Assembly (NCBI GenBank): GCA_019359495.1
Contig: JAHHHF010000072.1
Span: 62,001-126,000, forward strand
Source: Goleter apudmare HA4340-LM2
GTDB lineage: Bacteria; Cyanobacteriota; Cyanobacteriia; Cyanobacteriales; Nostocaceae
DNA: 64,000 nt
Direction of reading: 5' to 3'
Under the pieces are notes generated by a model. That model worked only from the letters and a program-made list of their open reading frames with translations. It searched no databases and was not told where the DNA came from. Of this stretch, positions 43,318 through 61,809 are shown one piece after another (position 1 is the first letter of the stretch; every line of letters begins with the position of its first letter). The position numbers and the translations under genes are program-made.

Positions 43318-44460
43318 GTGAAGCTTAAAACTGTTAATGCTATCCTCGAACATGCCCTAATGGGTTGCGATATATCTCCCGCAGAGGGAGTAGTATTGTT
43401 AAAGCAAACGGATCAAGAAGCGATCGCTGCTATACGTACTACAGCAGATCGACTCCGCAATCGCCAGGTGGGTGATACAGTTACCTATGTCATTAACCGC
43501 AATATCAACTTTACCAATATCTGTGAGCAGCACTGTAGTTTTTGTGCTTTCCGTCGGGATGACGGCGACACAGGTGCTTACTGGTTAGATTGGGCGCAAA
43601 TTCTAGAAAAAGCTACAGATGGTGTGCAACGGGGTGCAACAGAAATCTGTATGCAGGGAGGATTGAACCCCCAAGCACAAATCAACGGTAAAACTTTGCC
43701 CTATTACCTGAAGCTGGTAGCAACCATCAAGGAAGAATTTCCCCAGTTGCACTTACATGCGTTCTCTCCCCAGGAAGTACAATTTATTGCCAGAATTGAC
43801 GGGCTTGAGTATGCTGATGTGATTATGGCGTTGCGAGATGCTGGTGTTGGTTCCATGCCAGGAACAGCAGCAGAGGTGTTAGACGATACAGTGCGGCGGG
43901 TACTTTGTCCAGAAAAGATTGACACAGCCACTTGGCTAGAAATTGTCAGCACAGCCCATCAATTAGGTCTACACACCACCAGTACAATGCTATCGGGACA
44001 TATTGAAACACCAGAACAGCAAATAGCGCATTTAGAAAAATTGCGATCGCTACAAAAAACTGCCATCCATCAGGGATACCCCGCCCAAATTACTGAGTTT
44101 ATTTTATTACCCTTTGTCGGACAAGAAGCCCCCAAACCTTTGCGTCGGCGTGTAGGAAGAGATCAGCCAGTTTTAACTGATGCATTGTTACTGAGTGCTG
44201 TCGCCCGAATTTTCTTAGGTAATTGGATACCCAACCATCAGCCGAGTTGGGTAAAACTGGGGCTGGAGTGTGCAACGGAAGCTTTAGTTTGGGGTTGCAA
44301 CGACATTGGTGGCACCTTAATGGAAGAACACATCACCACAATGGCTGGTGCTGTAGGTGGTACTTGCATGGAAGTTGAAACCTTACAAACAGCGATCGCT
44401 TCTTTAGGACGACCTTACCAGCAAAGAGATACTCTATATCAGGTGATGGCGGAGAAATAG
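43318..44460 (+). CDS. cofH: FO synthase subunit 2 (CofH), radical SAM
   Basis: The 380-residue protein starts with GTG. The radical SAM motif CEQHCSFC (CxxxCxxC, about residue 69) lies in the CofH-type context [37 protein letters not shown] near the C-terminus is also diagnostic. CofH joins 5-amino-6-ribitylaminouracil and tyrosine; with CofG it makes FO (8-HDF), the antenna of cyanobacterial photolyases and precursor of F420. cofG is not in the window, so the subunits are encoded apart. Confidence 0.93.
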
Positions 44461-44599
44461 CAAACGACCAATAACCAATGACAAATGACGACCCCAGCCA
44501 GTAAACTTTCCATACACCGTACTACCACTCAATTGATCCCCAAGATACCAATCCAAGATAGGATGGACGTTGATTTATGCGTTATTTCACTGAATGCTT

Positions 44600-44995
44600 A
44601 TGAAAAGCTATTGGTCGCGTCTGCTTGCTCTAGTATTAGTTGTAGCCATTGGCTTAATGGGTTGTTCTAGTCCCGATAGTTTAACAGGCGATTATCGCCA
44701 AGACACCTTAGCGGTAGTCACAGTTTTGAGAAATGCTCTAGATGTATCACAAGATTCACCAGATAAAGCCGCAGTTCAAGCAGAAGCGCGTCAGAAAATA
44801 AATGACTTTTCAGCTCGTTATCAGCGAGTTAATTCTGTTTCTACTCTCAGCTCGTTTACCACCATGCGAACAGCCCTCAACTCCCTAGCTGGACACTATA
44901 GTTCGTATCCCAATCGTCCAGTACCCCAAAAGCTGAAAAATCGCTTAGAACAAGAGTTGAATCAAGTAGAGTCAGCACTGAGGCGTGGTGCTTAA
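44600..44995 (+). CDS. psb27: Photosystem II lipoprotein Psb27
   Basis: From ATG at 44600 (an alternative ATG lies 6 bp upstream) the protein is 131 residues. A signal peptide ends in the lipobox LMGC, followed by LTGDYRQDTLAVVTVLRNAL, INDFSARYQR, SFTTMRTALNSLAGHYSSYP and NRLEQELNQVESALRR. This four-helix fold and motif set is Psb27, which binds CP43 in PSII assembly intermediates on the lumenal side and keeps the Mn cluster from premature assembly. It is monocistronic, with a strong terminator. Confidence 0.95.
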   Translation: MKSYWSRLLALVLVVAIGLMGCSSPDSLTGDYRQDTLAVVTVLRNALDVSQDSPDKAAVQAEARQKINDFSARYQRVNSVSTLSSFTTMRTALNSLAGHYSSYPNRPVPQKLKNRLEQELNQVESALRRGA

Positions 44996-45014
44996 CTATC
45001 CGCTACCCTATATT

Positions 45015-45051
45015 CAAGAGTCAAATTTTCAGAGTATAATTTTGACTCTTG
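45015..45051 (+). terminator. Rho-independent terminator of psb27
   Basis: CAAGAGTCAAA (45015-45025) and TTTGACTCTTG (45041-45051) form a perfect 11-bp stem starting 19 bp after the stop, followed by ATTTTT. Confidence 0.8.
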
Positions 45052-45400
45052 ATTTTTAGGTCAAGTCTGGTTGGGAAGTTTGGGATTGTGAATTTTGATT
45101 TAAATAAATTGTCGTTGACACCATAGTATTGTCAATCAGTGATTAAGTATCTTGGCTTTTCTGGTAAAGCAACTACATAAAAAATGTGGCAACAGAAACA
45201 GGGGTTAAGAAGTCTTGTATAACTAGGCTTCAAAGCCCCTATTTTTGACTTATAGAATTCTATACACATCATTCTTAGCGATCGCTCTAGGGGTGATCGG
45301 TAAAAAAGGTACTGGGTATTAGGTATTGGGTACTGGGTATTGGGAAAACTATTTCTCAGTCCCCATACCTATGCCCCATTCTCCATTACACGTTTCACAT
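45052..45400. other. Intergenic region with tandem GGTATTGGGTACTGG repeat
   Basis: About 350 bp before the GH10-like gene. From about 45308 the DNA is a degenerate tandem repeat (TACTGGGTATT units), followed by a CCCCATACCTATGCCCCATT string that partly mirrors it. It is non-coding, although an open frame from 45326 enters the next gene. Confidence 0.5.
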
Positions 45401-46897
45401 ATGTCCAACTGTCCATTGAAGGCTGCAAAAGCAATATTATTTTGGCGGAGTCTGTTTGTTGCTGTTTTCAGCAGTAGTATGCTGATTCCCAACTTTGGGA
45501 CCCAACCAGCAGGGGCGCAAGCAACAGGATATTGTCATTTATCACCAGCAGAGGCCAAAGCCAAAGAAAACCTACGTTTGTCGGCACTCAAAGGCAATCA
45601 AGATGCCCAGAAACGCTACCAGCAGTTGATCAAACAACATGCACAAGAATTAAAGGATTGTCGGCGTCGCACCTGGCCGCAAAACCAAGCCATTTGGTTA
45701 CGTTTGTATCCCTGCGACATCAAGCCAGGGGTAATTGACCAGATTATGGATCGGATGGTCAACCGTGGCTATAACCAAATTTACTTAGAAGCATTTTACG
45801 ACGGGAAAGTACTATTACCAGCCGCCGCTAACCCTACAGTTTGGCCTTCCGTGATTCAGACTCCAGGGGCACAGAAAGCTGATTTATTAGCCACAGCAAT
45901 TCAAAAAGGGCGACAACGGGGTCTAAAGGTCTATGCGTGGATGTTTACCTTGCATTTCGGCTATAACTATGCAAAACGTGGAGATAGAGAAGCAGCGATC
46001 GCCCGTAATGGTAAAGGTCAAACCAGCCTGTATGTTGTAAATGAAAGTGCTCAAGTATATATTGATCCCTACAACGAGCAAGCCAAGCGCGACTACTACC
46101 AAATGGTACAGGAGGTACTGCGTCGTCGTCCTGATGGACTGTTATTTGACTATGTGCGGTATCCACGACAAACTGGCGGTGATTCCATCGCTACCAAGGT
46201 TGCAGATTTGTGGCTATTTAGTGAAGCCACCCAAATCGCTCTATTTAAAAGGGCACTGAATAATAAAGGCCTGGATTTAATTCGCCGCTTTTTGAGCAAG
46301 GGATATGTAACCACAAGTGATATCGCCGAAGTCGATCAACTGTATCCTCAAGAAGGGGCGCCAATGTGGCAAGGTCGGATACCACCAGCCCAAAAGTCGC
46401 TCCTGCCCCCAAGTAACAGACAACCAATTTTACAATTGGAGTTGTGGCAACTTGCTGTTGCCCATGCCATGCAAGGTGTGGTTGATTTTGTCAATTTAGC
46501 TAGCCACCCAGCCAAGCAACAAGGAATTACCTCAGGAGTGGTGTTTTTCCCAGAAGGCAACCAAAATTTGGGACAAGGCTATGATTCTCGCTTGCAACCT
46601 TGGGATAGATTCCCCGCTTCCCTGGAGTGGCATCCCATGTCTTATGCCACTTGCGGTGATGTCAGTTGTATTCTGGCCCAAGTGCAAAGGGTTGTGAGCA
46701 TAGCCAAACCAGAAACTGAGATTATTCCGGCCTTAGCGGGTAAATGGGGAGGAGCAATGAGTAATCGTCCTTCCCTAGAAGCACAAATGCAGGGACTCCG
46801 CCAACTGGCTCCTCGAATCAAGGGGGTGAGCCATTTTGCTTATTCTTGGCAATATCCTGAGCATGATAGCGATCGCAAATTTTGTCGTACCAGGTAA
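45401..46897 (+). CDS. Secreted GH10-like (GHL10) glycosyl hydrolase family protein
   Basis: Starting from ATG at 45401 (MSNCPLKAAKAILFWRSLFV) the protein is 498 residues with a signal peptide ending near PAGAQA. An upstream in-frame start at 45326 would add residues encoded by an intergenic repeat, so I reject it. The catalytic-type barrel (about residues 90-480) shows IYLEAFYDGKVLLPAA, GLKVYAWMFTLHFGYNYAKR and RRPDGLLFDYVRYPRQ. These resemble the glycosyl-hydrolase-like 10 family; the acidic residue in FDYVRYP is typical. Substrate unknown, probably envelope polysaccharide. Confidence 0.85.
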   Translation: MSNCPLKAAKAILFWRSLFVAVFSSSMLIPNFGTQPAGAQATGYCHLSPAEAKAKENLRLSALKGNQDAQKRYQQLIKQHAQELKDCRRRTWPQNQAIWLRLYPCDIKPGVIDQIMDRMVNRGYNQIYLEAFYDGKVLLPAAANPTVWPSVIQTPGAQKADLLATAIQKGRQRGLKVYAWMFTLHFGYNYAKRGDREAAIARNGKGQTSLYVVNESAQVYIDPYNEQAKRDYYQMVQEVLRRRPDGLLFDYVRYPRQTGGDSIATKVADLWLFSEATQIALFKRALNNKGLDLIRRFLSKGYVTTSDIAEVDQLYPQEGAPMWQGRIPPAQKSLLPPSNRQPILQLELWQLAVAHAMQGVVDFVNLASHPAKQQGITSGVVFFPEGNQNLGQGYDSRLQPWDRFPASLEWHPMSYATCGDVSCILAQVQRVVSIAKPETEIIPALAGKWGGAMSNRPSLEAQMQGLRQLAPRIKGVSHFAYSWQYPEHDSDRKFCRTR

Positions 46898-46922
46898 TCA
46901 GAAAGGGACAGGGAACTATAAA

Positions 46923-48113
46923 CTACCCCACCTCATAGGAGGATGGGGTTTTCAGCAGCCCTAGAACATGGTCACTCAGAGAGCAAGCCAGTTCTGAACC
47001 TCCAGGCTGGTTTATATTCAGCCCGATTGCTTCAATATTTTTTGCACCGTTGTAGTCGGCATCTCCCTTCCATCCACAATGACCACAAGCAAATCGCTTC
47101 CCATTTCGGTAAGACTGTCCTCTTACAGGGTGGATATGGTTGCACTTGTGGCAAGTTTGGCTGGTGTAGGCAGGATTCACCAAAATCAGAGGGATGCTTG
47201 CCGCAATTGCCTTGTAGATTAAGAACTGACGCAACTGAAAGAACGCCCAACTATTGGACAATCTACGCTCTGTCTTGCTGCGAGGGAGTTCATTATTGCG
47301 TTCCCTGATTCCGGTTAAATCCTCTAACGCAATAGCTCGGTTAGTGGTTTTCGCCAACTGAACAAGATGCTTAGATACAACGTGATTGGTATGGGACTGA
47401 AACCGTCTTTCCTTGCCTGACAACCGTTGCAAGAGTCTACGCGCTCTACGTCGCGTCGATCTTGTGCCTTTCGAGGCTTTTTTCTGAATAGACTGTCTCA
47501 CCTGTGCGTACTTGTTTCTGACCTCCGTGATTTGTTTGCCACTAAAACTCTCACCATCTGACGTGGCGGCAATGTCAGTTCTACCCAGATCAACGCCTAA
47601 AACCTTGTTCACCTTTTCGGGTGCATCAGGATTAGTCTCGATCTGGATATTTAGGGTATAGCGTCCATCCCGGTGCAAGACAAACACAGCACCCTTGATC
47701 TTGCCTTTACTCAGCTTGCCTGTGTGATAGTTACTCAGCCCTAACGCAAACTTTTCTCGCCCACCTAGTAGCGTCAAGCTGGCAATATTTCCCTTCAGAC
47801 TAAGGGTGCGAATATCGTAAGTGACGGATGTGGGCGCGAAACTTTCAAGCAAATCACCCTTAGATTTAGCCGTTTTTCGATTGCTGCAAACTCTACGAAT
47901 TGCATGAATCGCTAGCTGTGAGGGCAATCCAAACCTAGCCCGCACATCCTGATAGATCAAAGACTGCATTGCAATCTCATTTGTCAGTTTTTCGGGCACT
48001 TCCTGATTTACATAGCTGCAAGCATCAGAGAAAGTCCGGAACGTCTCTTGCACTTTGACAAGCTGTTCAGGCTTCACATTAATCTTGCAAACTAAGGTCA
48101 GGAGTTGTTTCAC
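46923..48113 (-). CDS. tnpB: TnpB, IS605-family RNA-guided nuclease
   Basis: The 396-residue protein has full family length. The split RuvC site is complete: GVDLGRTDIAA (Asp175), IALEDLTGIRER (Glu264) and DADYNGAKNIEA (Asp351/353). The zinc finger CHKC (321/324) and CGHC (343/346) is present. No frameshift or stop is seen, so the nuclease is probably active. TnpB proteins use an omega-RNA from the element's right end to cut target DNA and favour retention of the element. Start at 48113 (MKQLLTLVCKINVK) fits the family. Confidence 0.93.
   Translation of the reverse strand: MKQLLTLVCKINVKPEQLVKVQETFRTFSDACSYVNQEVPEKLTNEIAMQSLIYQDVRARFGLPSQLAIHAIRRVCSNRKTAKSKGDLLESFAPTSVTYDIRTLSLKGNIASLTLLGGREKFALGLSNYHTGKLSKGKIKGAVFVLHRDGRYTLNIQIETNPDAPEKVNKVLGVDLGRTDIAATSDGESFSGKQITEVRNKYAQVRQSIQKKASKGTRSTRRRARRLLQRLSGKERRFQSHTNHVVSKHLVQLAKTTNRAIALEDLTGIRERNNELPRSKTERRLSNSWAFFQLRQFLIYKAIAASIPLILVNPAYTSQTCHKCNHIHPVRGQSYRNGKRFACGHCGWKGDADYNGAKNIEAIGLNINQPGGSELACSLSDHVLGLLKTPSSYEVG
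46925..46949 (-). repeat. Right-end hairpin of the TnpB element
   Basis: On the plus strand ACCCCACCTC-ATAG-GAGG-A-TGGGGT folds into a 10-bp stem with one bulged base. The tnpB stop codon overlaps its outer edge. Its core matches the left-end hairpin in sequence and orientation. Confidence 0.75.
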
Positions 48114-48221
48114 GGATCTAAAGTTTCACGTATTGACATTTTAGACTAAACATGGATTCCTGGTCATTCCGGAAGATAATTGGCTGTTTCCGCTCACCGC
48201 TCCAACAGCCGCGCTATCCCT

Positions 48222-48244
48222 CCCCACCCTATAGAGGTATGGGG
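48222..48244 (-). repeat. Left-end hairpin of the TnpB element
   Basis: CCCCACCCTATAGAGGTATG plus GGG forms an imperfect palindrome about 110 bp before the tnpB start. It shares the CCCCACC...ATAG...TGGGG pattern with the right-end hairpin. Confidence 0.72.
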
Positions 48245-48260
48245 AATCCCGCTAGAATGT

Positions 48261-48959
48261 TGAATTTGTTAAGAGTCAAGCATATTTTCCCTGCTTCCTA
48301 TTCCCTATTCCCCTTTTCAAATAATACTTTTGGGCTGTTTTGATCAGTTTCATCAGAAATTCTTTACACCTGTTTTCTCGATAACATCAATCAGCCAATT
48401 GTTAATTCTTTCTGTTATTTATCCTTAGTGAGCAAGCAATCACAAAATCTTGAAAATTCTACCTTGATTGCTGTTAGTAACATTTTTTGCCCTTGAGCCA
48501 CAATCAATAGCCTGCTAATAACAGTCTCAGCACTAGAAAAGAAGGTAGGAATCATGTATCTTCTCCCATCTCTAAATTGTCTGCATTGAGGCAATCTCTT
48601 GGAATTGTCAAAGCTTACTGACGAATATATTATTGACTTACTTTCTTGACTCTAACCCCGGTTAAATTAGTTTATTGTCACTGTTTTGACGACTATTTAA
48701 GTCATATTAGCGAGTTTTAGGGACAAAACTGAAGAATTACTTAACTTCGATCAGTTTTGCTAATAATAGCTATGAATAAGTTAAAAATTCTCAATATCAT
48801 ATCAGTGATTTTTAATAAACTAATTTAGTTATATTTACGGTTGATGAGTTTAATCTCACATTCCCAAGGAGGATTTGAAAAATTAAATAATTCATAAGTA
48901 TGGTTAACATAGCCAGTAAATTGAATAACATAGAGGAAATATGCGGACAAAGGTATTAG
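48261..48959. other. AT-rich region between the TnpB element and a coiled-coil gene
   Basis: About 700 bp hold no frame with family features. At 48285-48325 there is a CCCTGCTTCCTATTCCCTAT low-complexity repeat. GGAGG at about 48866 has no convincing frame after it. Confidence 0.45.
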
Positions 48960-49334
48960 ATGGAGCCATTACAAAAGGAAATCCTGGCTTTGAGTCACAA
49001 ACTTGATGATCTATCTCAGGTGATAGAGAAGTTGGAAGTTAAAGTGTCTCAAGCATTATCAGAGTGCTCTTTAGCAAAAACACAGATAGAGAATAGTTAT
49101 TTAGAAAATAGCGAATCTGTGCGTTACCAATTCAAAGGACATATCAATTTAAATCCAGAGATGGAACACAAGGATGTATTGGCAGATGGCATTTATTTAG
49201 ATATGCATCGTCAAAGTGGGGACAAAATCCTGACACCAGAAATTCAAATACAACGATTGACAGCGCAATTAACAGCAGCATATAACCGGATTGCCGCCCT
49301 AGAAGAACAATTACTGAGAGAGAGAATACAGTAA
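48960..49334 (+). CDS. Coiled-coil hypothetical protein
   Basis: The 124-residue protein begins with a coiled coil (EILALSHKLDDLSQVIEKLE to about residue 45). A short polar middle follows, then a second heptad region at the C-terminus (RLTAQLTAAYNRIAALEEQL). It is soluble with no cysteines. I do not recognise a family. The stop codon TAA (49332-49334) is part of the left 6-bp target duplication of a miniature element, so the element sits directly at the gene's end. Confidence 0.65.
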   Translation: MEPLQKEILALSHKLDDLSQVIEKLEVKVSQALSECSLAKTQIENSYLENSESVRYQFKGHINLNPEMEHKDVLADGIYLDMHRQSGDKILTPEIQIQRLTAQLTAAYNRIAALEEQLLRERIQ

Positions 49335-49337
49335 TTA

Positions 49338-49446
49338 AGTAGCTCAGTGTTAAAAATTATCGTTATGACAAGGCAGGACGCAGGAGGGAAGAGGATTACA
49401 GCTTTGTCTACCTTTCCTTACTTAGTTTTGTTTTTTCCCACCGACT
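49338..49446 (+). mobile_element. 109-bp miniature element, copy 1
   Basis: The sequence from AGTAGCTCAGTGTTAAAAAT to TTTTCCCACCGACT is flanked on both sides by TAATTA (49332-49337 and 49447-49452), a 6-bp target duplication. A second copy of exactly the same length lies at 59801-59909. Over the 106-bp common core I count 8 mismatches. The ends are only weakly inverted (AGTAGC versus AGTCGG). It carries no gene. Confidence 0.8.
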
Positions 49447-49452
49447 TAATTA

Positions 49453-49644
49453 GGGCTTGCTGAAAAAGTCTTTTCGTGGGGGATAAGAGGCAGGAGGGGA
49501 GTTACAAACTACCCCTAAATCTCTTGAATCCGAAAAAGTGATTGATTTAAAGTGATATCAAGTCTTTTTCCTTGCACCTCTCATCACCTTTTATCCTACT
49601 CAAGGCATTGATTTATCAAGGTTTTCTGTTTATTCAGCAAGTCC
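49453..49644. mobile_element. MITE-like element with GGGCTTGCTGAA inverted ends
   Basis: GGGCTTGCTGAAAAA at the left and TTATTCAGCAAGTCC at the right are inverted with 2 mismatches, each edged by TA (49451-49452 and 49645-49646). The 192-bp interior has further inverted segments (GGATAAGAGG...TTTTATCC) and no gene. The TA border suggests an IS630/Tc1-like target duplication; the parent transposase is not identified. It abuts the 109-bp element. Confidence 0.7.
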
Positions 49645-49712
49645 TAAATACTGATGAAGACTGCCAATTCTTGTTGAACTTGGCATTTTTTTATTTTGAA
49701 TTTTGAATTGAT

Positions 49713-50861
49713 TCATGAGTGTTGGTATCGACTCAACCGTTGAAGTTGCATTTCAATGGCTGACAAAAGTTGGTGTTGTTGCCAATCGAGACTGAGATGA
49801 GCAGCGATTGCTGCACCACCAGCACCCATACCTTCTTTGACAAAACCCTGCTCATAGGCTCGGAATTGGGGATAACGAGAATCAGCAAAGCTTAACTGAG
49901 TAGCTAGTAAGCAAACCTGATTGATGTTGCGGGCTAATTCTACTGTGCCACCAGTGGGGTCTTCTGCGACCCAACGGGTTGTGCCCACAATGACTGCTTG
50001 TGGTTGCCAAGACAAGGTGTAAGCCTGAGCGATCGCATTGATTAAAGCACAAACTGCCAGCATTTGTGTACCACCAGCCAGCAACACACCACAATTGCGG
50101 CTAGCTGCGATCGCCATTCCCGCTACCACCACCTGCATCGGATCACCCACCGCCGCCACTAGTTCTAAGGGATCAGTGAGGGGCGATGAGGAGAAATTTA
50201 TTTCCCCTGCTTCTCGTCTCTCCCTCATCTTCTCCAATCCAGCCTGCACCAACGACCATTTCTGCTCATGGTTACACACAGGATGACTACTGTTGACTTT
50301 GCCCATTGCAGCGATACCCAAGCCAGTTAAAACCGCTAAGGCTGTGGTGGTACCACCAACTACACACTCACCCAAAGTCAGATATCCCTGGGGGTTTTGA
50401 GCAGCTAACTCAGCACCCCAAAGCAATCCTTGTTCTAGTAAATGGCGTACTGTAGTGATTTCTAACGCCGCACCTAGACTTAAACACTTAGCAGGAGTAC
50501 CACCCAAATCAATTGCTGGCACAGCAGGAGGCTGGGGTAAACCAGCATTAAATATGTAAACTGGGGTTTTGATCGCCTCAACCACAGCACGGGAAATGAG
50601 CACAGGTGAAGCCCCTGCTGCTAGTGGTGGGAGGGGGTATTGCGGCTGATATTCCGGGCCATAGTATAAAAACTCTGCATCCGCACAAGCAGTATATAGC
50701 CGATCTTCTGGAGTGCGACCAGCTGCGGAAATGCCTGGAATCAAACCAGTTTCAGTAAATCCTAAAATACAGGCAAACACAGGTAAACGACCGCGATACT
50801 TAGCGATCCATGCTTCACCATGTGCGATTTCGGTATAGATGTTGATCAAGTCATTGGTCAT
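49713..50861 (-). CDS. CobT-like nicotinate-nucleotide phosphoribosyltransferase family protein (TIGR00303 type)
   Basis: The 382-residue protein shows GFTETGLIPGISAAGRTPED at the N-terminus, then GGTPAKCLSLGAALEITTVR, GYLTLGECVVGGTTTALAVL and GVLLAGGTQMLAVCALINAI. This is the archaeal/cyanobacterial branch of the CobT superfamily, assigned to lower-ligand activation in cobamide synthesis; the actual substrate in cyanobacteria is less certain. The start codon lies inside an ATGACCAATGACTTG heptad repeat, so the first residues are repeat-encoded. Confidence 0.88.
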   Translation of the reverse strand: MTNDLINIYTEIAHGEAWIAKYRGRLPVFACILGFTETGLIPGISAAGRTPEDRLYTACADAEFLYYGPEYQPQYPLPPLAAGASPVLISRAVVEAIKTPVYIFNAGLPQPPAVPAIDLGGTPAKCLSLGAALEITTVRHLLEQGLLWGAELAAQNPQGYLTLGECVVGGTTTALAVLTGLGIAAMGKVNSSHPVCNHEQKWSLVQAGLEKMRERREAGEINFSSSPLTDPLELVAAVGDPMQVVVAGMAIAASRNCGVLLAGGTQMLAVCALINAIAQAYTLSWQPQAVIVGTTRWVAEDPTGGTVELARNINQVCLLATQLSFADSRYPQFRAYEQGFVKEGMGAGGAAIAAHLSLDWQQHQLLSAIEMQLQRLSRYQHS

Positions 50862-50972
50862 TGATCATTGGTCATGAATGAAGAATTATTTAACTGGACA
50901 ATCTCAATAAAAATACGCATGAAATATGGGAGTATCTACAAGTACGAAAAACAAATGACAAATGACAATTAA

Positions 50973-51698
50973 CTATCCTTCATAATCCATGAGCACCTGC
51001 ACCCAGCGTGGTGGACGGGGAATGGGATTACCAAGACGATCCAACAACAACCATGCTGCCAGGTGTACTACAAATAAGTAAATTAAATTATTGAGCAAAA
51101 TTACAGCGATCGCTCCCATTTGAATGAAAAACACACTGGGACTTGCCAATATTTGCAGCTTCAGAAAAATCCACTCTGTAATTTCTGTGACCTGATTAAT
51201 GACATAAACCCATAGGTCTTCACCCGATAACAAAGATAATAACCAGAGCCGGAAAAATATTCCTAAAGTTCCCAATAGCGTACCCAAGCAAATAGAAACC
51301 ATCCAGGGTACACGACGATTCCATGTTGCTCCCAACAGTACCCCCATAAAAGCATAGGGCACAACAAACAACAGACTGCGAATTGGCCCCATTAGCACTG
51401 TGAGCAGCAACCCACAGGTGAGTGCTGACATCCAAGCGGCTCGTTTACCCCAACGGAGATAAACTAGAGCGATCGGGATGGGAAAAAATATCCGCAAAAC
51501 TGGCCCCAAGGGAAAGTAAAAATTAATAAACCAAATCAGACTAGCAGCACTGGCTAAAAACGCCGTTTCTACCATCCTTAAGGGTGCATCAACTTTCAGT
51601 TGGGGTTGCTTTAATTGATGTTGCACAGGCTGAGATTCAGGGGATGAGCCAGAGTCAGGCTCATCTGGCAGAGAATCTAAAATGCTCATATTTGACAA
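50973..51698 (-). CDS. DUF2232 membrane protein
   Basis: The 241-residue protein has a polar, acidic N-terminus (residues 1-38) followed by about five to six membrane segments. ETAFLASAASLIWFINFYFP, LGPVLRIFFPIPIALVYLRW and GLLLTVLMGPIRSLLFVVPY are typical DUF2232 segments of cyanobacteria, some annotated as S-component-like membrane proteins. It starts 4 bp after the Crp gene stop on the same strand, so the two are co-transcribed. Confidence 0.88.
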   Translation of the reverse strand: MSNMSILDSLPDEPDSGSSPESQPVQHQLKQPQLKVDAPLRMVETAFLASAASLIWFINFYFPLGPVLRIFFPIPIALVYLRWGKRAAWMSALTCGLLLTVLMGPIRSLLFVVPYAFMGVLLGATWNRRVPWMVSICLGTLLGTLGIFFRLWLLSLLSGEDLWVYVINQVTEITEWIFLKLQILASPSVFFIQMGAIAVILLNNLIYLFVVHLAAWLLLDRLGNPIPRPPRWVQVLMDYEG

Positions 51699-51702
51699 GT
51701 GT

Positions 51703-52401
51703 TTAAACGATCATTCTTTCTAAAGCTGACAAATCAGGAATACAAATAATGTCTTGATCCCGCCTAATCAAGCCTTTTTTTTCTAGTCTTGTCAATACTC
51801 GTGTGACTGTTTCTCGGGCTAGCCCACTCAAACTGCTCAATTCCCGATGAGGTAAATTAGGAATTTCAGTACCTGTATTCCCTTTTTTTCCCTGTCCTTC
51901 TGCCAAAAACAACAATGTATCTGCCACCCGTGACTGACTATCAGATTCCCGCAACCGCAGTCTGCGATTGACTTGTCGCAGGCGTCTAGCCATTAGTTGT
52001 GCTAATCGCATTCCTGCCAGTGGTTCAATCTGGAGTAACTTGACAAAATCCTGAGATGGCATACTACCAATCACTGTGGGAGTCAGAGTAATGACATCAG
52101 TGGAGCGAGGTACTTCGTCTAGCGCTGCCATTTCACCAAATAATTCTCCTTTGCCTAGAATATTCAGTGTTACCTCTTTGCCCTCTAGATTATAGGTGCG
52201 AATTTTAACCCATCCATCCACAATAAAGTATACAGAGCCGCCCCAGTCGTTTTCCAGTAAAATTACTTGATTAGCTGGGTGAGTGCGCGTAACAAGATGG
52301 GTGAGAGCTGGCTCCACAACGATTTCTGGCAACCCTTGAAAAAAGGGAGCGGAGATCATCCAGGGATTAGTGGGTGCCTGCAAGCTATATCGGTCTTCCA
52401 T
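51703..52401 (-). CDS. Crp-family regulator with intact cNMP-binding signature
   Basis: The 232-residue protein has a cyclic-nucleotide-binding barrel with GGSVYFIVDGWVKI and GKGELFGEMAALDEVPRSTD. That is the E...RS phosphate-binding cassette of cAMP-type sensors. A helical dimer region and HTH (SSLSGLARETVTRVLTRLEK) complete it. It could respond to cAMP, as SYCRP1/AnCrpA-type proteins do; this is inferred from the cassette. It leads a two-gene unit with the DUF2232 gene. Confidence 0.88.
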   Translation of the reverse strand: MEDRYSLQAPTNPWMISAPFFQGLPEIVVEPALTHLVTRTHPANQVILLENDWGGSVYFIVDGWVKIRTYNLEGKEVTLNILGKGELFGEMAALDEVPRSTDVITLTPTVIGSMPSQDFVKLLQIEPLAGMRLAQLMARRLRQVNRRLRLRESDSQSRVADTLLFLAEGQGKKGNTGTEIPNLPHRELSSLSGLARETVTRVLTRLEKKGLIRRDQDIICIPDLSALERMIV

Positions 52402-53089
52402 TAGGACATCTTTATTAGAGTTGCTAGATACACAACAAGCAAGAGCGCCATTTTCAGCCTAAGCTATCAAAGCACAGCCCCTTATCTTCAAGAAAACTAA
52501 GATATGTTACATCAAAAAGCGACAATATACACTTTTCTCAACAATCCTTATTTATGGTTGTAAATCGCCCCTTGGGGATGCTTTGGGGGCTAACCAGACA
52601 GCAAAGATAATTACTTAAAAATATAAGTAAACAAGATCAATGATACTCAAGGTAGCTCTATTTTTGCTAACGTAAGGTTTTTGGCTATTTTTCAGTAATG
52701 GGCGACTAATTACAAAAAATGCCATTTTGCCATTCATTTAACCTTTGGCTGTGTTAGTTTCTCGTGCAGAGAGCGTTTGTTTACCAAAGTTGGTTTACAT
52801 GAAAATTGGATTTTTTGGGATGTTTTATGCTATTAAGTCCAACAAGCTGCCATCTTGCTTGTCTGGTGAGAGGATACAATACCCAGTGAACTGTCCTAAT
52901 ATAACTAACTTCTCAATACTTTTTAACTTCCTGGATGGCAATTAGTTGTCAAGCTCACCTGCTCACACAATCAGTTACGGTAAATTCTCACAACCAATAA
53001 CATAAATTGCACTCAAAAGTAACGTGGGTCAAAGCCACCACTGACAACTCTCATAATTGTAAAGTAATTTCTAGTTAAGGTATTTTGAC
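52402..53089. other. Intergenic region upstream of the Hsp70-like giant gene
   Basis: About 690 bp between divergent genes. A 66-codon plus-strand frame at 52745 has no family features and is not called. I see no repeat or clear RNA. It must contain the two promoters. Confidence 0.45.
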
Positions 53090-56000
53090 GTGACTCCCCG
53101 TGTAGATGAAATTCAGAAACTAATCGCGGATGTTGACAATCTACTTGCCACTGCTGGCAAGCGTCTACCTAAGCTTTTGTCTAGTCAAGCGCCAGAAGCC
53201 CGAGAGACTTTAGAACGAATTCGTGACTTTCTGGTCAAGCTAGGAGAAAGTGAGGCTTTAGACAGCAGTAAGCCAAACAAGGTTCCTGGACAACAGCCGT
53301 TATCGCCGTTGTTGGCAAAATTTATTGATCAAAGCAACATTCAGTCTTCAGGACAGCATCAACAACCATCTCATGTTGTGCCTCAGGAATTAAGCACTGA
53401 GCTTTCGGAATTAATCCAGCCGTTGCGAATAGAATTAGCAGGACTATTGCAAGAGCGGGCAAATCTGGTACAGGAAATTAGGCTTTTAGAGCAAAGGCGA
53501 TCGCAAAACTATTCTTTAAGCCAGCAGTTGGCAAATCAGGAGCAGGTAATTAACGAATTTTTACAAGTGCTGATGAACCGGCTTGTGCCATCCTTAGCGC
53601 CCCAGTTAGGGCAAACTGCTGTCACTTCTCCTGGTGCTACAACTATAGGCGATCGCCCACAGCCCAACCAAGTATTAGAATCATCAGACCAAACAGAGCG
53701 GTTAACATTATTGACCAGGAATTTAGATCAACGTTTACTGTCACTTGATGGGACTGTAAATGTAGTCTTTGAAGCACTCCAGCGCAATATTAATACCTAT
53801 CATCAGTCGCTATCACAATCCTTGGCGAGAATGCACAACCAAGGACTGCAAGGGGAACAGTTGATGGCGAGCTTTGTGCAGAATTTAACCCAGTATTTGC
53901 CGCCCCCATCTCCTAGTTATCAGCCGTCTTTTTTGGGCATACAAAATCAAACCTTAGCAGCAGCCGATAATCTTTTAGAAACTGTGGCTCCATTTACTGT
54001 TAAAGACGAGCCGGAAGACCCAGTGGGCACAGATGATTTAGATGCAGTTCTTTTACAGCTTAGTCAAGATTTACCCCAAGTTTCTGAGACTACTATCACC
54101 AAGAGCAAATCACAGCCAGATCGTGTAGATGAAGTAGACCAACTTTACGCTAGTTTGTTTGGTACTAGTAATGTAACCAACCAAACACCAGCAGTTCCTT
54201 TGCCTGTTGTCGCAAGTGAATTATCTACCTTGATCACTGATGCCCCAGATGTACTTCCAGGCGATGCAGTACAACCAGTAGATCCTGGGCTGGAGCAAAT
54301 AGAGTCACAAGATGCAACTGTACAACCTACAGACGCATCATCACAATTATGGGAAGCATTGTTTTTGGATGAAGACCCAGAACCAGCGCCACCTGTAGAT
54401 TTGTCTAGTTTACTGAAAACAAAAGTGGCAGCAACGGAAACTTTGCCCTCTCAGTTAGCCAGTATTGATACAATTACAGCCCTGACAGATCTATTAACTG
54501 ATTTCGATGATGTCTCTTATGTCGAAGCAACGACAACCGTTGCAGAAAAGTCGGAAGTAGTGATCAGCGATGAGGAGGAAGATAATCCATCGGATAATTA
54601 TATTCTGGCTTCACCGCAGGAAAATTTACTCTCTCAAGGAGAAAGCCTGGTTGAGACTATACCTGATATTTCCTTAGATGATGTGCAGTTGCAGCAATTG
54701 GAACTGGATTTGGCGCAGTTAGACGGTAGCACAAGTCTAGCTAGTGAGAGCCAACAAGAACTGCACACAGATCATCAACCAACAACAGCTTTCTCGCGGA
54801 TAGACATATCACAGATAGCCCCTACTGCTTTTCCTCAGCCAGAGGTTGAGTTAGACTTTAGCCCCACAACTGAAAAAAAAACGGAAGTCACAAATCCTGT
54901 CTTTGCAAGTTCTACACCGTCCATTGCTAGTAACTTAAATAATCCAGGAGTTTCTCAAATCAATGTTTCTGACTCAGTCTGGTATTTAGGCATCGATTTG
55001 GGGACAACAGGAATTTCGGCAGCATTGTTAAATCGCTCCACTTTTGTGGTTTATCCTATCTATTGGTCAGCAGAGAACCAAGCAGGAACCAGTGCTTTTC
55101 AGCAATCGTTTCGTTTACCAGCTGAAGTTTATCTACCTACGGCTGCTGTACCGCCAGCAGAAGCTGAAAGCACGGAAGTCATGGAGTCAGCACCACTTCC
55201 GGAACTGACGAATAATCTCCACTCGGCACAGTTGAAGCCATATTTACAAGTAGCCATTCCCTATAGAAGCGCCCGCCAAAAATGGGAACCTGTACTGCAA
55301 TTCAATCAGTTTTCTGCGGGGCCTTTGGTTTGGGTTGTACGATCGCTCTCGAAACTGCTGTTAACTCTCAAGTCTGATCGTAATAGCACTACTCAAGGGT
55401 TAACCGCTAATGCTGTGGGTTTAGACGAACACACCTTCACCAGTGTCATGAGTCAAATTACTGGTGTCATCTGCACTTGCCCATCCGGCTGGTCGGAACA
55501 ATATCGCTTTAACGTCCGGGAAGCTCTACTTACCAGTAAAATTGTCCAGTATCCCCAACAAGTGTTTTTCATTGAGGAAGCGATCGCCAGTCTGTTGAGT
55601 GTACTCGATGGCGCCAATGGTGAAACAATCCAGTTAAGCGATCGCCAAGGTTTACGCCCGACAAGAACCACCGAACAACCTTTGGTGGGCAGTACTCTGG
55701 CAATCAACATTGGCGCGACGGCCACCGAAATGACCCTAGTTGATTTGCCAGAAAGCTTACTACAATTGGCACATCATGATTTCATGCTCCACAGTTTTGC
55801 CTATGCTGGTAAGGGCATTGAACAAGATATTATCTGCCAACTGCTATTACCGCCAAAATCTCGACAATCACGTGCTGAAATCCAAGGTGATAATAAAACT
55901 ATTACCAGTAACCCTTGGCATTGGCAGCCCACTCTTCCTGGTCTAGACCAGATGTGTTGGCAGAGTTTAGGGTTGGAAGCTTTAGAACTACCCCGTGTCG

Positions 56001-56848
56001 GAGAACCAGATATCACGGTGCGAATTCGCCTCCAGCAACATCTCGAAAGTTCTCTACTCGGACAGGCGGTATTGGATGCGGCTTTGGCTTTGAAGCTAAT
56101 TTTGCAACATCAAGAATCTTTTACCCTAGATTTAGCCGATCAGCGATGGGTACTGCAACGACGAGACTTAGAAAGCCAGGTGCTAGTCCCGTTTGTGCGC
56201 CGCCTCAATCGAGAACTCAACAAGCTTCTAGTAGCTCGTGGTATACCCACAGAAGCAATTAACCAAGCTATCTTGACTGGCGGAGTAGCTGCTATCAGTA
56301 CGGTGAACCGTTGGCTACGACAAAAACTCCCCAATGCCAAGATTATTCAAGATTCATATCTGGGTGATCACGGTGCGCTGAATTGCAGTGGGGTGGCTTA
56401 TGGTCTGGCGATGCTGCCTTTGCATCCCCAAGTCTTAGACATCCCTAAGCAACAATATACTGACTATTTCTTGTTTACGGAATTGCTGCGACTCTTACCA
56501 GAACGTTCCTTATCCTTCAATGAGGTTTTGCAGTTATTTGAGGGGCGTGGTATAAATACGCGCACTTGTCAGCAACGTTTGCTAGCTTTCTTGGAAGGTG
56601 AATTACCTCCGGGTTTGATCCCTAACAGTCTAGATTTCACCTGGCTCACTCAGAGTTCCCAAGAAAATGTTGACTATCAGGCGATCGCCGCTACACCACT
56701 GTTTGAAAAACAAGGTAGTCTGAGCTATCGTCCTCATGCTCAACAACTATTAATTCTACGCCGCTATCTGGATGCGATTCAAGCTAGTACTCAACAGTCT
56801 TTAGACGAACCATACACTGTTAATTTCGCCTTAGAAAATTTTCAATAG
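53090..56848 (+). CDS. Large protein with coiled coil, acidic linker and C-terminal Hsp70/actin-like ATPase
   Basis: This is a 1252-residue protein starting with GTG. Residues 1-185 are helical/coiled (VDEIQKLIADVDNLLATAGK, LAGLLQERANLVQEIRLLEQ). Residues 190-620 are low-complexity, acidic and Ser/Thr/Gln-rich. From 628 an Hsp70-type ATPase follows: phosphate-1 GIDLGTTGISAALL (634-647), then TCPSGWSEQYRFNVREALLT with FIEEAIASLLSVL (the counterpart of the NEPTAAAL region), phosphate-2 LAINIGATATEMTLVDL (about 869-885) and adenosine motif ILTGGVAAIS (about 1060). No Hsp70 substrate-binding domain follows; instead about 130 further residues. No signal or membrane segment. Role unknown; a scaffold or cytoskeletal-like ATPase is one possibility. 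Confidence 0.8.
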   Translation: MTPRVDEIQKLIADVDNLLATAGKRLPKLLSSQAPEARETLERIRDFLVKLGESEALDSSKPNKVPGQQPLSPLLAKFIDQSNIQSSGQHQQPSHVVPQELSTELSELIQPLRIELAGLLQERANLVQEIRLLEQRRSQNYSLSQQLANQEQVINEFLQVLMNRLVPSLAPQLGQTAVTSPGATTIGDRPQPNQVLESSDQTERLTLLTRNLDQRLLSLDGTVNVVFEALQRNINTYHQSLSQSLARMHNQGLQGEQLMASFVQNLTQYLPPPSPSYQPSFLGIQNQTLAAADNLLETVAPFTVKDEPEDPVGTDDLDAVLLQLSQDLPQVSETTITKSKSQPDRVDEVDQLYASLFGTSNVTNQTPAVPLPVVASELSTLITDAPDVLPGDAVQPVDPGLEQIESQDATVQPTDASSQLWEALFLDEDPEPAPPVDLSSLLKTKVAATETLPSQLASIDTITALTDLLTDFDDVSYVEATTTVAEKSEVVISDEEEDNPSDNYILASPQENLLSQGESLVETIPDISLDDVQLQQLELDLAQLDGSTSLASESQQELHTDHQPTTAFSRIDISQIAPTAFPQPEVELDFSPTTEKKTEVTNPVFASSTPSIASNLNNPGVSQINVSDSVWYLGIDLGTTGISAALLNRSTFVVYPIYWSAENQAGTSAFQQSFRLPAEVYLPTAAVPPAEAESTEVMESAPLPELTNNLHSAQLKPYLQVAIPYRSARQKWEPVLQFNQFSAGPLVWVVRSLSKLLLTLKSDRNSTTQGLTANAVGLDEHTFTSVMSQITGVICTCPSGWSEQYRFNVREALLTSKIVQYPQQVFFIEEAIASLLSVLDGANGETIQLSDRQGLRPTRTTEQPLVGSTLAINIGATATEMTLVDLPESLLQLAHHDFMLHSFAYAGKGIEQDIICQLLLPPKSRQSRAEIQGDNKTITSNPWHWQPTLPGLDQMCWQSLGLEALELPRVGEPDITVRIRLQQHLESSLLGQAVLDAALALKLILQHQESFTLDLADQRWVLQRRDLESQVLVPFVRRLNRELNKLLVARGIPTEAINQAILTGGVAAISTVNRWLRQKLPNAKIIQDSYLGDHGALNCSGVAYGLAMLPLHPQVLDIPKQQYTDYFLFTELLRLLPERSLSFNEVLQLFEGRGINTRTCQQRLLAFLEGELPPGLIPNSLDFTWLTQSSQENVDYQAIAATPLFEKQGSLSYRPHAQQLLILRRYLDAIQASTQQSLDEPYTVNFALENFQ

Positions 56849-57549
56849 TCCAATACATTGGCCCACGCTTCTAGAGCTAGCGTGTACGCACAAATTTCGC
56901 CAACGGTTGTAAACCGTCGTCTCATAGCCAAAGTCCTCTGTACACGAAGTGTTCCCGGGGAGCATCCCAAATGTGTAAATTTATTTTTTTGTAGTGATGG
57001 CTCTCTAGCCCGCTTCCTGGACATTAGGGAGCAAGATGCTCCCACTACAAATTTTATTTTTGCAAAATTGGGATGCTCCCGTATTCCCGTACTCCTGACG
57101 GAGAAGGGTAGAGGACTAGTATTTCCTATTTCCGACAAAGTTAATCAGCGCAAGTTCAGTATTTTCTACTTTCTGCACAGTCCATTAAAAATGTACTTTC
57201 GCTATGAGGCTCTTATTTTCAATCCCAGACGGCATGAGCACTTTAACGACTTGTGTGTACACCGTAGCCCTTCTAGAGTGAGGGCATTTTGGCTTAGTTC
57301 TGTATTATTTCTGTCTACTTAACTTTAACTCAGTAATATTATTTAGATAATCTTAGTGATTTAGAAACCAAGTTTAACATTAATTATTTATTTTTTTACG
57401 TAAAATACTGAAAATTCAAAATATCTCTGTTTAATTACAAGATTACGTAAAGATTAGCTCTGTGGATTCCCCTGAGGAAAAAAAATATATATATTAACGC
57501 TTAGTGAAAGCTAAGTGCATAAATTAAGTATAAAAGTGAAGTTTTATTC
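56849..57549. other. Repeat-rich intergenic region
   Basis: About 700 bp. The left half holds the inverted repeats described separately. Long frames on both strands (56858-57322 plus, 56842-57138 minus) arise from these repeats and lack family features. The right 200 bp are AT-rich and should hold the promoter of the sugar transferase gene. Confidence 0.5.
56958..57080. repeat. Nested inverted repeat, GGGAGCATCCCAA type
   Basis: The outer arms GGGAGCATCCCAA (56958-56970) and TTGGGATGCTCCC (57068-57080) are perfect. Inside are TGTAGTG (56990-56996) and CACTACA (57043-57049), and a central hairpin GGGAGCA-AGA-TGCTCCC (57027-57043). The same GGGAGCATC module is used three times. This is a MITE-like or highly iterated palindromic family. 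Confidence 0.72.
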
Positions 57550-58251
57550 GTGGTTACATCTACTACCGATGCAACAGGCTATGCCGTGGAAAACTTAGCC
57601 CTTTTCAGCCAACTTTACTCAGTTCATTTTTCACATCAGCCTTTACACCCTTCTGTCACAAGTTTGACAAAGCGGTTGATTGATATTATCGGTGCGATCG
57701 TGGGGCTGATGCTCGCAGCTTTGGTGATTATCCCTATAAGTATTATTACGATAATTGATGATCCAGGCCCGATATTGTATTCTCAAATTCGTTGTGGGTT
57801 GAAGGGAAAGCCATTCCGCATTTGGAAATTCCGTTCGATGGTTGTCAACGCTGATCAACTTAAGCATCTAGTCAAAAACCAAGCTCAAGGTCATATATTT
57901 AAGTCTGATGAAGATCCACGTGTTACTCGTGTGGGTAAGTTTTTACGACGCACTAGCCTAGATGAACTACCTCAATTCTGGAATGTCTTACTGGGAGATA
58001 TGAGTTTAGTTGGTACTCGCCCACCTACTCCTGATGAAGTCATCAGCTACGAACCACACCATTGGGAAAGACTAAGAGTTAGGCCAGGTATTACCGGAGA
58101 ATGGCAAGCTAACGGTCGTTCCAGTATCAAGAATTTTGAAACAATCGTGAGTATGGATATCGACTATCAACGTAAGTGGTCTATTGCTTATGACCTGAGT
58201 TTAATTGTGAAAACTATTTTGGTAGTCTTAAAAAAGAGCGGTGCTCATTAA
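57550..58251 (+). CDS. Undecaprenyl-phosphate sugar-1-phosphate transferase (exopolysaccharide)
   Basis: This 233-residue protein starts with GTG. One hydrophobic segment (about 38-65; LIDIIGAIVGLMLAALVIIP) is followed by the bacterial sugar transferase domain with PGPILYSQIRCGLKGKPFRI, IWKFRSMVV, DPRVTRVGKFLRRTSLDELP and MSLVGTRPPTP. These enzymes start repeat-unit assembly by loading a sugar phosphate onto undecaprenyl phosphate. The short length with one membrane segment is the minimal form. Some heterocyst glycan genes encode such proteins; the product here is unknown. Confidence 0.92.
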   Translation: MVTSTTDATGYAVENLALFSQLYSVHFSHQPLHPSVTSLTKRLIDIIGAIVGLMLAALVIIPISIITIIDDPGPILYSQIRCGLKGKPFRIWKFRSMVVNADQLKHLVKNQAQGHIFKSDEDPRVTRVGKFLRRTSLDELPQFWNVLLGDMSLVGTRPPTPDEVISYEPHHWERLRVRPGITGEWQANGRSSIKNFETIVSMDIDYQRKWSIAYDLSLIVKTILVVLKKSGAH

Positions 58252-58280
58252 GACTGTGCTATTATATACTTCAAACTTGT

Positions 58281-59111
58281 CTAACCTTTGACACCACTAC
58301 CTGTGTCTGTTGGCACAATGTAGCGTTGTAAAAATATAAATAACATCAGCACCGGGGCAATAGAAATTATTGAGCCAGCAGCTACCAACCGCCAATCAAG
58401 AGAAAAAGTACCAGCCAGTTTAGCTACTCCTAAGGGCAAAGTATACAAATTCTCATCTTGGATCACGATTAACGGCCAGAGAAAATCACTCCAAGAACCG
58501 ATGAATACAAAGATCGCCAAAGTCACTAGTGCAGGGCGAATTGCAGGTAACATGATGTCCCACCACAAACCCAACTCTGAACTACCATCCATGCGAGCTG
58601 CTTCTTCGATTTCTTGAGGAATACTCATAAAAGCTTGCCGCAATAAAAAGATGCCAAAGGCAGAAGCTAAACTGGGAAAAATTATGCCCAAATAAGTATT
58701 TCGCAATCCTAGCTGGACTGTCAAAATATAAAGAGGAATCATGACGATCTGAAAGGGGATCATAATCGTAGAGACGATCGCAATAAAAATCCAGTCTCGC
58801 CCCGGAAACGACAGTCTTGCCAAGGGATAAGCGGCTAAGGAACAGAAAAGCAGATTCAACCCCACAGTCAAAACAGATACTAGGGTGCTGTTATAGAGGT
58901 ACTGAGCAAAAGGTAAAGATTGCCACACGCGAGCAAAGTTATCTAGTGTCGGTTGACTGGGCAACAACTGCGGCGGTGATTGCAAAATATTTTCTGTTGG
59001 CGATTTCAAAGCTGTACTGATGAGCCACAGCAGTGGGAACAACGTGATCAGAGCGATCGCTCCCAACAGCAAATAAATTAGTATGGTTTGTAGTCGTTTG
59101 TTGTTTGTCAT
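58281..59111 (-). CDS. Carbohydrate ABC transporter permease (MalG-type)
   Basis: The 276-residue protein has six membrane segments. The EAA loop EEAARMDGSSELGLWWDIML is followed by PAIRPALVTLAIFVFIGSWS. This is the second permease of a sugar-uptake ABC system (CUT1). The first permease, binding protein and ATPase are not in the window, so it is an isolated gene here. The start codon lies in a heptad repeat (ATGACAAATGACAAACAAC), so the N-terminus MTNNK is repeat-encoded. It converges with the sugar transferase. Confidence 0.92.
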   Translation of the reverse strand: MTNNKRLQTILIYLLLGAIALITLFPLLWLISTALKSPTENILQSPPQLLPSQPTLDNFARVWQSLPFAQYLYNSTLVSVLTVGLNLLFCSLAAYPLARLSFPGRDWIFIAIVSTIMIPFQIVMIPLYILTVQLGLRNTYLGIIFPSLASAFGIFLLRQAFMSIPQEIEEAARMDGSSELGLWWDIMLPAIRPALVTLAIFVFIGSWSDFLWPLIVIQDENLYTLPLGVAKLAGTFSLDWRLVAAGSIISIAPVLMLFIFLQRYIVPTDTGSGVKG

Positions 59112-59175
59112 TTGTCATTGGTTATTTGTCATTGGTCATTTTGTAGCAAGGTCTCTACCAGGATTCTTTCTCATC

Positions 59176-59730
59176 CTATTGCCTATCCCCCATGCCCCAT
59201 TCTGTATATACAGCATCTAGTGGCTGATCCCAAGGTTGAATGGGGATTTGGGGTAAGTAGGCAAAACCAAATACTACGCCGATAGTTGGTTTGGTGTTCC
59301 ATTCTGGTAAACTCAGCAGGCGATCGTAATAGCCCCCACCATAACCCAAGCGATATCCTTGGCGATCGCACGCCACGCTAGGAACCAGAATCAAATCCAC
59401 TGTGCAGGGATCTAAAGTTGGTGCATCAGGATCAGGTTCATAGATACCATAAGAACCCATTTGTAAAGAATCACCTGGTATCCAGAGATGCCAAACCAGT
59501 GATTTACCAACGCAACGAGGAAATCCCCAACGATGTCTAGTCTCTGCAAATAAGGCAGTCAGATCTGGTTCTTGGCGAACGCTGAAATAAGCAAGTATTG
59601 TTTTGGCTTGGTTAAACAAAGCTGAGGCTTGTAGTTGGCTACAAATGCGATCGCTTTTTTCCCTCCATTCCTGAATCGGCATTGATTGTCGTTTTTTGAG
59701 CAAAGTCCGACGTAGTTGCGTTTTATCCAC
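59176..59730 (-). CDS. 5-formyltetrahydrofolate cyclo-ligase
   Basis: The 184-residue protein begins MDKTQLRRTLLKKRQSMPIQ and has KTILAYFSVRQEPDLTALF, DLILVPSVACDRQGYRLGYG and GGGYYDRLLS, the ATP/folate-binding motifs of the family. The enzyme converts 5-formyl-THF to 5,10-methenyl-THF with ATP. Length is typical. It is 64 bp upstream of the sugar permease on the same strand but is functionally unrelated. A CCCATGCCCC-type repeat lies between them. Confidence 0.94.
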   Translation of the reverse strand: MDKTQLRRTLLKKRQSMPIQEWREKSDRICSQLQASALFNQAKTILAYFSVRQEPDLTALFAETRHRWGFPRCVGKSLVWHLWIPGDSLQMGSYGIYEPDPDAPTLDPCTVDLILVPSVACDRQGYRLGYGGGYYDRLLSLPEWNTKPTIGVVFGFAYLPQIPIQPWDQPLDAVYTEWGMGDRQ

Positions 59731-60624
59731 GACACAAATTCAAGCTTTAGTAATTTTCAGTCTGGAAACATAGCTTCAGTCAATCAATATGACTGTCTTA
59801 ATTAGCTCAGTGTTAAAAATTATCGTTATGACAAGGCAGAAGGCAGGAGGGAAGAGGATTATAGCTTTGTTTACCTTTCTTCACTTAGTTCTGTTTTTTC
59901 CTACCGACTGTCTTATATTTTGAATTGGTATTAGCTGCCCTAAATAGCTAGTAATTTTCTACCTTAGAAGATAAAAGATACACCCAGCATAGCTGATGAA
60001 ATCTTTACAAAGAATGTTCCCCATATTTTCCTTTGTCAGTAATTTTATTTTTCTTGAGTATTTATACTTAAATTTTTTCCAAAATTCTTCTTAATGCATA
60101 TTTTTTGTGTATTTTCAATAAAAAAATATAGTCTTTTGATGAAGATTAAGAGTTTTTTTATGTAAAGTTTTCTTTAAAATAAGAAAATTGATGGACAAAT
60201 AGTTAGATCGATATGTATAAAATTATGTAATGCCGTTAGCGTAAAGTAACACGCCCTACATCTAGTAGATATACCTTTGTTAGAAAATTGAATAATTTGA
60301 TGGAGTCTATGCAGAATTAGTTTCTGCAAAGGATTTTCCCTGTGCTATCTGACTTTTTTGTTTTCGTAAGCATCTTTACTTAGTGTAGATATTTTTACAC
60401 AAGTTTTAAACAGCGCTTCTACCAGACTACATTTTCCTGTCCGTATATATTGTCAATAGCCAAAGACTATTGACCAACTAAAACTGTTTGCACTCAAACA
60501 GAGGAATTATTTGCAAAACAAAAGCAGATAGTTCTTAAAGGCTTGCGTATGAAGTTATATAGCACTGGGGTGTAATCTAATACTAATCTAAAAGTATGTA
60601 CACTGAAGTGAGGAGTTGGACAAC
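59731..60624. other. Intergenic region holding a miniature element and an AT-rich leader
   Basis: About 890 bp with no supported gene. It holds copy 2 of the 109-bp element (59801-59909). The remainder is strongly AT-rich, presumably the promoter of the Alg14-like gene. Confidence 0.5.
59801..59909 (+). mobile_element. 109-bp miniature element, copy 2
   Basis: It is the same length and orientation as copy 1 (49338-49446). It runs from ATTAGCTCAGTGTTAAAAAT to TTTTCCTACCGACT and is flanked by GTCTTA on both sides (59795-59800 and 59910-59915). The two copies have different 6-bp flanks, which argues for independent transposition rather than a duplicated segment. Confidence 0.82.
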
Positions 60625-61577: not shown

Positions 61578-61809
61578 TGATTAGTGAATAGTTTGCGTAG
61601 TTTTTTATTAAAAGGTTGCACTCTACCATTAATAAGAAAAATAATTTGTTTTGGGTTGATAGAGTAGTTCTCTAAAACCCCATAACAGATTCAAACTCGG
61701 AACTATAGATTCAGTTTGTCTTTCTTAATTATGTAGCTTGCGTCTCACGGGATGCGAGTATTAAGAATTGCTTTAAGACTTGTGTGTTGTGTTGAGGAAT
61801 TCAAGGTTA

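Follow-up and report, generated by a model that had tools for sequence, protein, structure and literature searches.

A family of short noncoding transposons in Nostoc-type cyanobacteria, with imperfect inverted ends and a duplicated TA

Two related repeats of Goleter apudmare HA4340-LM2 belong to a real, ordinary family of short non-coding transposons of Nostoc-type cyanobacteria. Each copy is very probably (probability about 0.87) a non-autonomous, non-coding DNA transposon (MITE) of 113 bp, with imperfect inverted ends of ~14 bp, inserted at a duplicated TA. Confidence is tempered slightly by the empty-site evidence, which comes from a single locus where homology next to the junction is short on one flank. 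Both copies lie in the window, the 64,000-nucleotide stretch of contig JAHHHF010000072.1 that was analyzed.

The two copies had been proposed to represent a miniature element of 109 bp (positions 49338 to 49446 for copy 1 and 59801 to 59909 for copy 2), almost devoid of inverted ends and flanked by exact 6-bp target duplications. Their equal lengths and the 8 mismatches in the core, i.e., beyond the first three bases, were reproduced on re-measurement (9 differences over the full 109 bp), and the similarity is above chance (BLAST E value of ~2e-41). Likewise, TAATTA lies on either side of the 109-bp copy 1 and GTCTTA on either side of copy 2. The view of a miniature element transposed as a unit of defined length was upheld, but the borders of that unit were not. 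With borders drawn by aligning same-genome copies to their consensus, conserved sequence runs past the 109-bp unit (left end TAAGTAGCTCAGTG and right end CACCGACTTACTTA), and the element becomes 113 bp plus the duplicated TA, TA-AGTAGCTCAGTG...CACCGACTTACT-TA (Table 1). Both copies are outside genes, and no open reading frame (ORF) of 60 amino acids (aa) or more overlaps either one.

Table 1. Coordinates of the two MITE copies and neighboring features in the window
Feature	Position	Strand	Description
124-aa gene (coiled-coil gene of the original prediction), upstream of copy 1	48960-49334	+	Stop codon intact
MITE copy 1 with both TA	49336-49452	+	117 bp, 95% identical to consensus of genome copies; body 49338-49450, 113 bp
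Copy 1 left TA (target)	49336-49337		Sequence and consensus alignment; TA duplication seen at orthologous empty site of another copy
Copy 1 left inverted end	49336-49349	+	TAAGTAGCTCAGTG; consensus alignment and end comparison
Copy 1 right inverted end	49439-49452	-	Minus-strand TAATTAAGTCGGTG; family consensus TAAGTAAGTCGGTG; one base altered in copy 1
Copy 1 right TA	49451-49452		Sequence and consensus alignment
Second, unrelated MITE	49453-49644		192 bp, adjoins copy 1; GGGCTTGCTGAAAAA...TTATTCAGCAAGTCC; 9 genome matches including itself
Second MITE, left flank	49447-49452		TAATTA, common with copy 1 end
Second MITE, right flank	49645-49650		TAAATA
10-bp repeat, copy 2 left flank plus TA	59791-59800		GACTGTCTTA; identical to copy 2 right end, 59906-59915
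MITE copy 2 with both TA	59799-59915	+	Body 59801-59913, 113 bp; right end TTACTTA changed to TGTCTTA
End motif of MITE family, occurring as inverted pair			TAAGTARSTCRGTG

The whole consensus is spanned by 20 of 40 same-genome matches, and 18 of these were tabulated, two at 70 to 74% identity being omitted. TA stands at both termini in all 18 tabulated copies and the terminus TTACTTA in 15, and the 6-bp stretches immediately flanking the TA pair match each other in none. Terminal inverted repeats are present: the consensus ends agree at 11 of 14 positions, and individual copies have 12 (2 copies), 11 (10 copies), 10 (5 copies), or 7 (1 copy) matches, 11 or more being found in a fraction of 5e-5 of random 14-base pairs. 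The window copies reach 10/14 (copy 1) and 7/14 (copy 2), their right ends being TTAATTA (one change) and TGTCTTA (two adjacent changes), compared to TTACTTA. These altered right ends had been read as target DNA, which concealed the inverted repeats; with these terminal bases counted as part of the element instead of the target, the ends are inverted. Misplaced borders therefore account for both the seemingly noninverted ends and the 6-bp duplications.

A set of 121 complete, nonredundant copies was assembled from 182 loci, 29 of which (L228 to L256) are empty-site sequences mostly without the element. Filtering for TA at both ends, score, complete flanks, and nonduplication left 130, from which 9 whose end was false or truncated were taken out manually; since TA at both ends was required, this set is itself no test of TA. 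A repeat of 6 bp or longer at the position of the proposed duplication occurred in 2 of the 121 copies, both of them the window copies. A 109-bp element with noninverted ends and a 6-bp duplication fits these two exactly, with a null chance of 0.0004 per re-dealt pair for a match of 6 bp or longer, but none of the other 119 complete copies conforms, which refutes it as a family property. In addition, the terminal bases that it omits are conserved across unrelated sites (TTACTTA, above), and the empty site described below shows TA alone, so that this model is now very improbable. The original prediction had itself named missing duplications or different borders in other copies as evidence against it, and this is what the other copies show. 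Two copies read in isolation can thus point to a false 6-bp duplication.

Duplication of TA was observed at an intergenic copy in another genus of the same family (locus L072), for which relatives have an empty counterpart. The filled site reads GCTGGATTGCTAA-TA-AGTAAGTCGG...GAGCTACT-TA-AATCAG (termini inside the TA, AGTAAG...CTACT) and the empty site GCTGGATTGCTAA-TA-AATCAG. Ten relatives were aligned, of which seven cross the junction (five with a single TA and two with TG) and three are too diverged. One TA has become two at this orthologous position, and the duplication rests on a single insertion site. Continuous homology to the left of the junction extends for 16 bp, beyond which the filled genome has an extra ~87 bp missing in the relatives. 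This extra stretch (query bases 199 to 285) is partly matched at other places in one relative and is possibly another small repeat. Neither window copy offered an empty site that could be aligned. For copy 1, the intergenic DNA of upstream-gene orthologs does not align; for copy 2, flank matches of relatives stop by query base 184, approximately the start of the neighboring gene, among the matches listed; and no match spans the joined flanks of the element at locus L128.

The small size, multiple copies, and location of both window copies outside genes would also suit readings other than a transposon, namely, a REP/BIME-like palindrome or a structured RNA. These readings are contradicted by the TA duplication at the empty site and by folding as single-stranded DNA, which was no better than that of shuffled sequences (z of 0.56 to 1.08 in four folds); none of the four folds thus gave the stable palindromic hairpin that serves as the REP/REPIN criterion. 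No Rfam match was obtained at gathering scores in window positions 44000 to 64000, and this alternative is extremely unlikely.

Copy 1 had also been thought to duplicate the stop codon of the upstream gene. That codon, TAA at 49332 to 49334, is intact and not duplicated; it ends ahead of the left TA, copy 1 starting at 49336. None of 80 upstream-gene orthologs has the element after its stop codon (77 bases past the stop plus consensus BLAST), at least 4 of them having fewer than 300 bases of sequence past the stop. Consensus BLAST of the orthologs detected a full-length element in L128 only, upstream of the gene; the L132 and L191 matches were short and partial and did not lie at the stop. A loose end pair directly past the stop in L186 had no BLAST match and was taken as spurious. 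Further upstream, a 396-aa ORF on the minus strand (46923 to 48113) is, by its motif, a candidate IS200/IS605-type TnpB.

The second MITE immediately to the right of copy 1 bears on the origin of its TAATTA hexamer. Among five other two-ended copies of this neighbor's family in the same genome (one false pair in L180 and another in L451, a row of 588 bp, being excluded), four have exact 6-bp duplications (TATTTA, TACTTA, TAATTA, and TAATTA), and around the fifth the 7-bp TAAGGTA is repeated exactly. The flanks of the window copy, TAATTA and TAAATA, agree at 5 of 6 positions. Duplications of this family have the form TANNTA, and variants of 192 to 340 bp occur elsewhere in the genome. Since the family makes 6-bp duplications, the hexamer that had been assigned to copy 1 doubles as the left duplication of its neighbor. 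As judged by alignment, the right-hand TAATTA of copy 1 is the terminus of the element itself (consensus TACTTA, with one change). A nested arrangement, in which the 192-bp MITE first duplicated TAATTA (stop TAA plus TTA) and copy 1 later entered the TA of that hexamer, would agree with the exact duplications in four of the five other neighbor-family copies, two of them TAATTA, and with the 5/6 agreement in the window. The opposite order, with the neighbor inserting into an altered copy 1 end, takes an equal number of base changes, however, and the order is unreadable from the orthologs, none of which shows copy 1 after the stop; nesting is accordingly tentative, at slightly under even odds.

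In copy 2, the pair of neighboring base changes in the right end creates a 10-bp identity with the left flank, and the direct repeat is partly altered element end. Its length is far beyond single-flank chance, no re-dealt flank giving 8 bp or more. A 5-bp repeat is reached by 4 of the 121 copies versus a null fraction of 0.0011. The 6-bp repeats of the window copies are taken as coincidences of altered right ends with the left flank; the 10-bp repeat itself is left unexplained. Overwriting of some right ends with left-flank sequence, through short-repeat conversion or slippage aided by the inverted ends, would generate false longer duplications of this kind. Altered right-end bases match the left flank at 5 of 6 positions in the same genome (null mean of 1.6; P = 0.003) and at 6 of 12 in all copies (null mean of 2.7; P = 0.035), but the same-genome signal includes the two discovery copies. 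Moreover, matching was 1/6 in other genomes (P = 0.76), 1/8 at left ends (P = 0.86), and, in other subfamilies, 6/19 at right ends (P = 0.29) and 7/21 at left ends (P = 0.30), from 40 rows of which some are alternative borders of one element. Overwriting is therefore unlikely, and its more specific form, in which right ends in this lineage are sometimes rewritten from the left flank via slippage between short imperfect repeats bracketing inverted-repeat DNA, seems less likely still. The altered-end signal was not treated as a mechanism because it is confined to the genome and copies that led to the finding. If true, such rewriting would make target duplications look falsely long and could lead MITE border calls astray in general.

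The genome-wide search envisaged in the original prediction yielded at least 40 same-genome matches at an E value of ≤10, window copies included (6.7 Mb and 113 contigs; 40 of 64 first-look candidates scored). The end pattern is found at 63 genome sites versus 2 for the reversed pattern, and the MITE ends are common to other MITE subfamilies. Of 192 genomes sampled from the same family, 169 contained relatives of the element (E ≤ 0.001); at a stricter threshold (E ≤ 1e-6), so did 10 of 148 genomes sampled from the order, 4 of these 10 belonging to other families. Plasmid matches (11 of 72,556 records) were from Nostoc, Tolypothrix, Trichormus, Microchaete, Sphaerospermopsis, and Calothrix. On a plasmid of Fremyella diplosiphon, a coding sequence annotated as an integrase terminates within the initial 7 bp of a copy (L288, 2196 to 2507 and 2501 to 2631), the element end TAAGTAG in this context holding stop codons. 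Most copies differ in length by multiples of 7 bp, owing to a heptamer repeated inside the element: the ladder 103/110/117/124/131 holds 95 of the 121 copies, and the AAGGCAG(GAGGCAG)n-like tract varies with copy length (correlation of 0.65).

A full-length, transposase-bearing element with the same ends, another expectation of the original prediction, was absent from the loci examined: no transposase in them was bounded by TAAGTA-type inverted repeats of its own. In the genome itself, the two DDE_3 (PF13358) matches are one intact IS630 (ends TAAGCTAATCAGCA/TAAGCTAATCGGCA) and one fragment. DDE_3 is present in at least 179 of 184 relative genomes, and an IS630 with its own TAAGTAR ends was found neither in 30 of the relatives' DDE_3 loci (8 without a called inverted pair) nor in 19 of 20 further DDE_3 regions (1 without a called pair), the twentieth, L225, being a MITE locus. 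The same was true of 30 HTH_Tnp_IS630 loci (12 without a called pair; domain in 96 of 184 genomes), and 30 ISAzo13-type loci (PF07592; 45 of 99 genomes) had no TAAGTA-type ends of their own. Callable IS630 ends were TAAGCTAATCGGCA, TAAGCTGYTACGCAGC, TATAGCAACCGCC, or others. The pattern TAAGTARGTCGGTGNAAATAAA occurred in 38 of 184 genomes and in no viral contigs; across 30 loci, the closest opposite end usually lay no more than ~310 bp away or was unseen, and L292, L297, and L300 also had weak opposite ends at 1275 to 1461 bp.

Scanning the collected loci for such ends 700 to 2600 bp apart gave 12 rows, some of them from one site. In L116, the ends enclose a transposase, but its insertion sequence has other called ends. 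L079, the row inspected in detail, has a MITE beside an IS630 transposase remnant, which was taken as an insertion into the remnant. In this locus (1227 to 1617) and in L078 (1221 to 1617), the MITE copy lies 7 bp past the end of an IS630-type remnant (DDE_3; 88 aa in L079), and the arrangement, common to two genomes, is probably a MITE inserted into a decayed insertion sequence. The parent element may be rare, lost, unsampled in the loci examined, or diverged at its ends.

Among known systems, Nezha is reportedly a cyanobacterial MITE of about this size, described by Zhou and colleagues in 2008 from Anabaena variabilis ATCC 29413 and Nostoc. A relative of the element, 74% identical, lies on a plasmid of ATCC 29413, and the element could be Nezha or a related family. 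The MITEs of Anabaena sp. 90 are another near system, likened here by description rather than by sequence (PMC3542288). Outside the cyanobacteria, BrickBuilt of Porphyromonas gingivalis is a MITE with an internal minisatellite (PMC4596501); it resembles the element in having a tandem repeat inside a MITE, but the unit is 23 nucleotides rather than 7 and the host is unrelated. Heptamer repeats are reported to be over-represented in Nostoc (PMC4692102), with a unit that differs from that of the element. Among the papers listed by a literature search with the element end sequences, all were unrelated, as judged by title and start of abstract.

Members of the IS630/Tc1-mariner superfamily insert at TA with TA duplication, as in ISY100 from Synechocystis (PMC2170065). 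The element is like MITEs of this superfamily in its inverted ends, duplicated TA target, and lack of coding sequence, which suggests IS630/Tc1-mariner-type mobilization, but the IS630 loci examined differ in being without TAAGTAR-type inverted repeats of their own. A Tc1/mariner/IS630-type DDE transposase, supplied in trans, would cut the MITE ends and then join them to a staggered TA, which would thereby be duplicated. Slippage would change the copy number of the internal GAGGCAG-like heptamer and would be the main source of length variation. No function beyond the element's own spread is indicated, and the family opens no new mechanism. For a widespread MITE family of the Nostocaceae, the borders are now defined, with an empty site and a rule for the target, all of which are useful for the annotation of Nostoc-type genomes.
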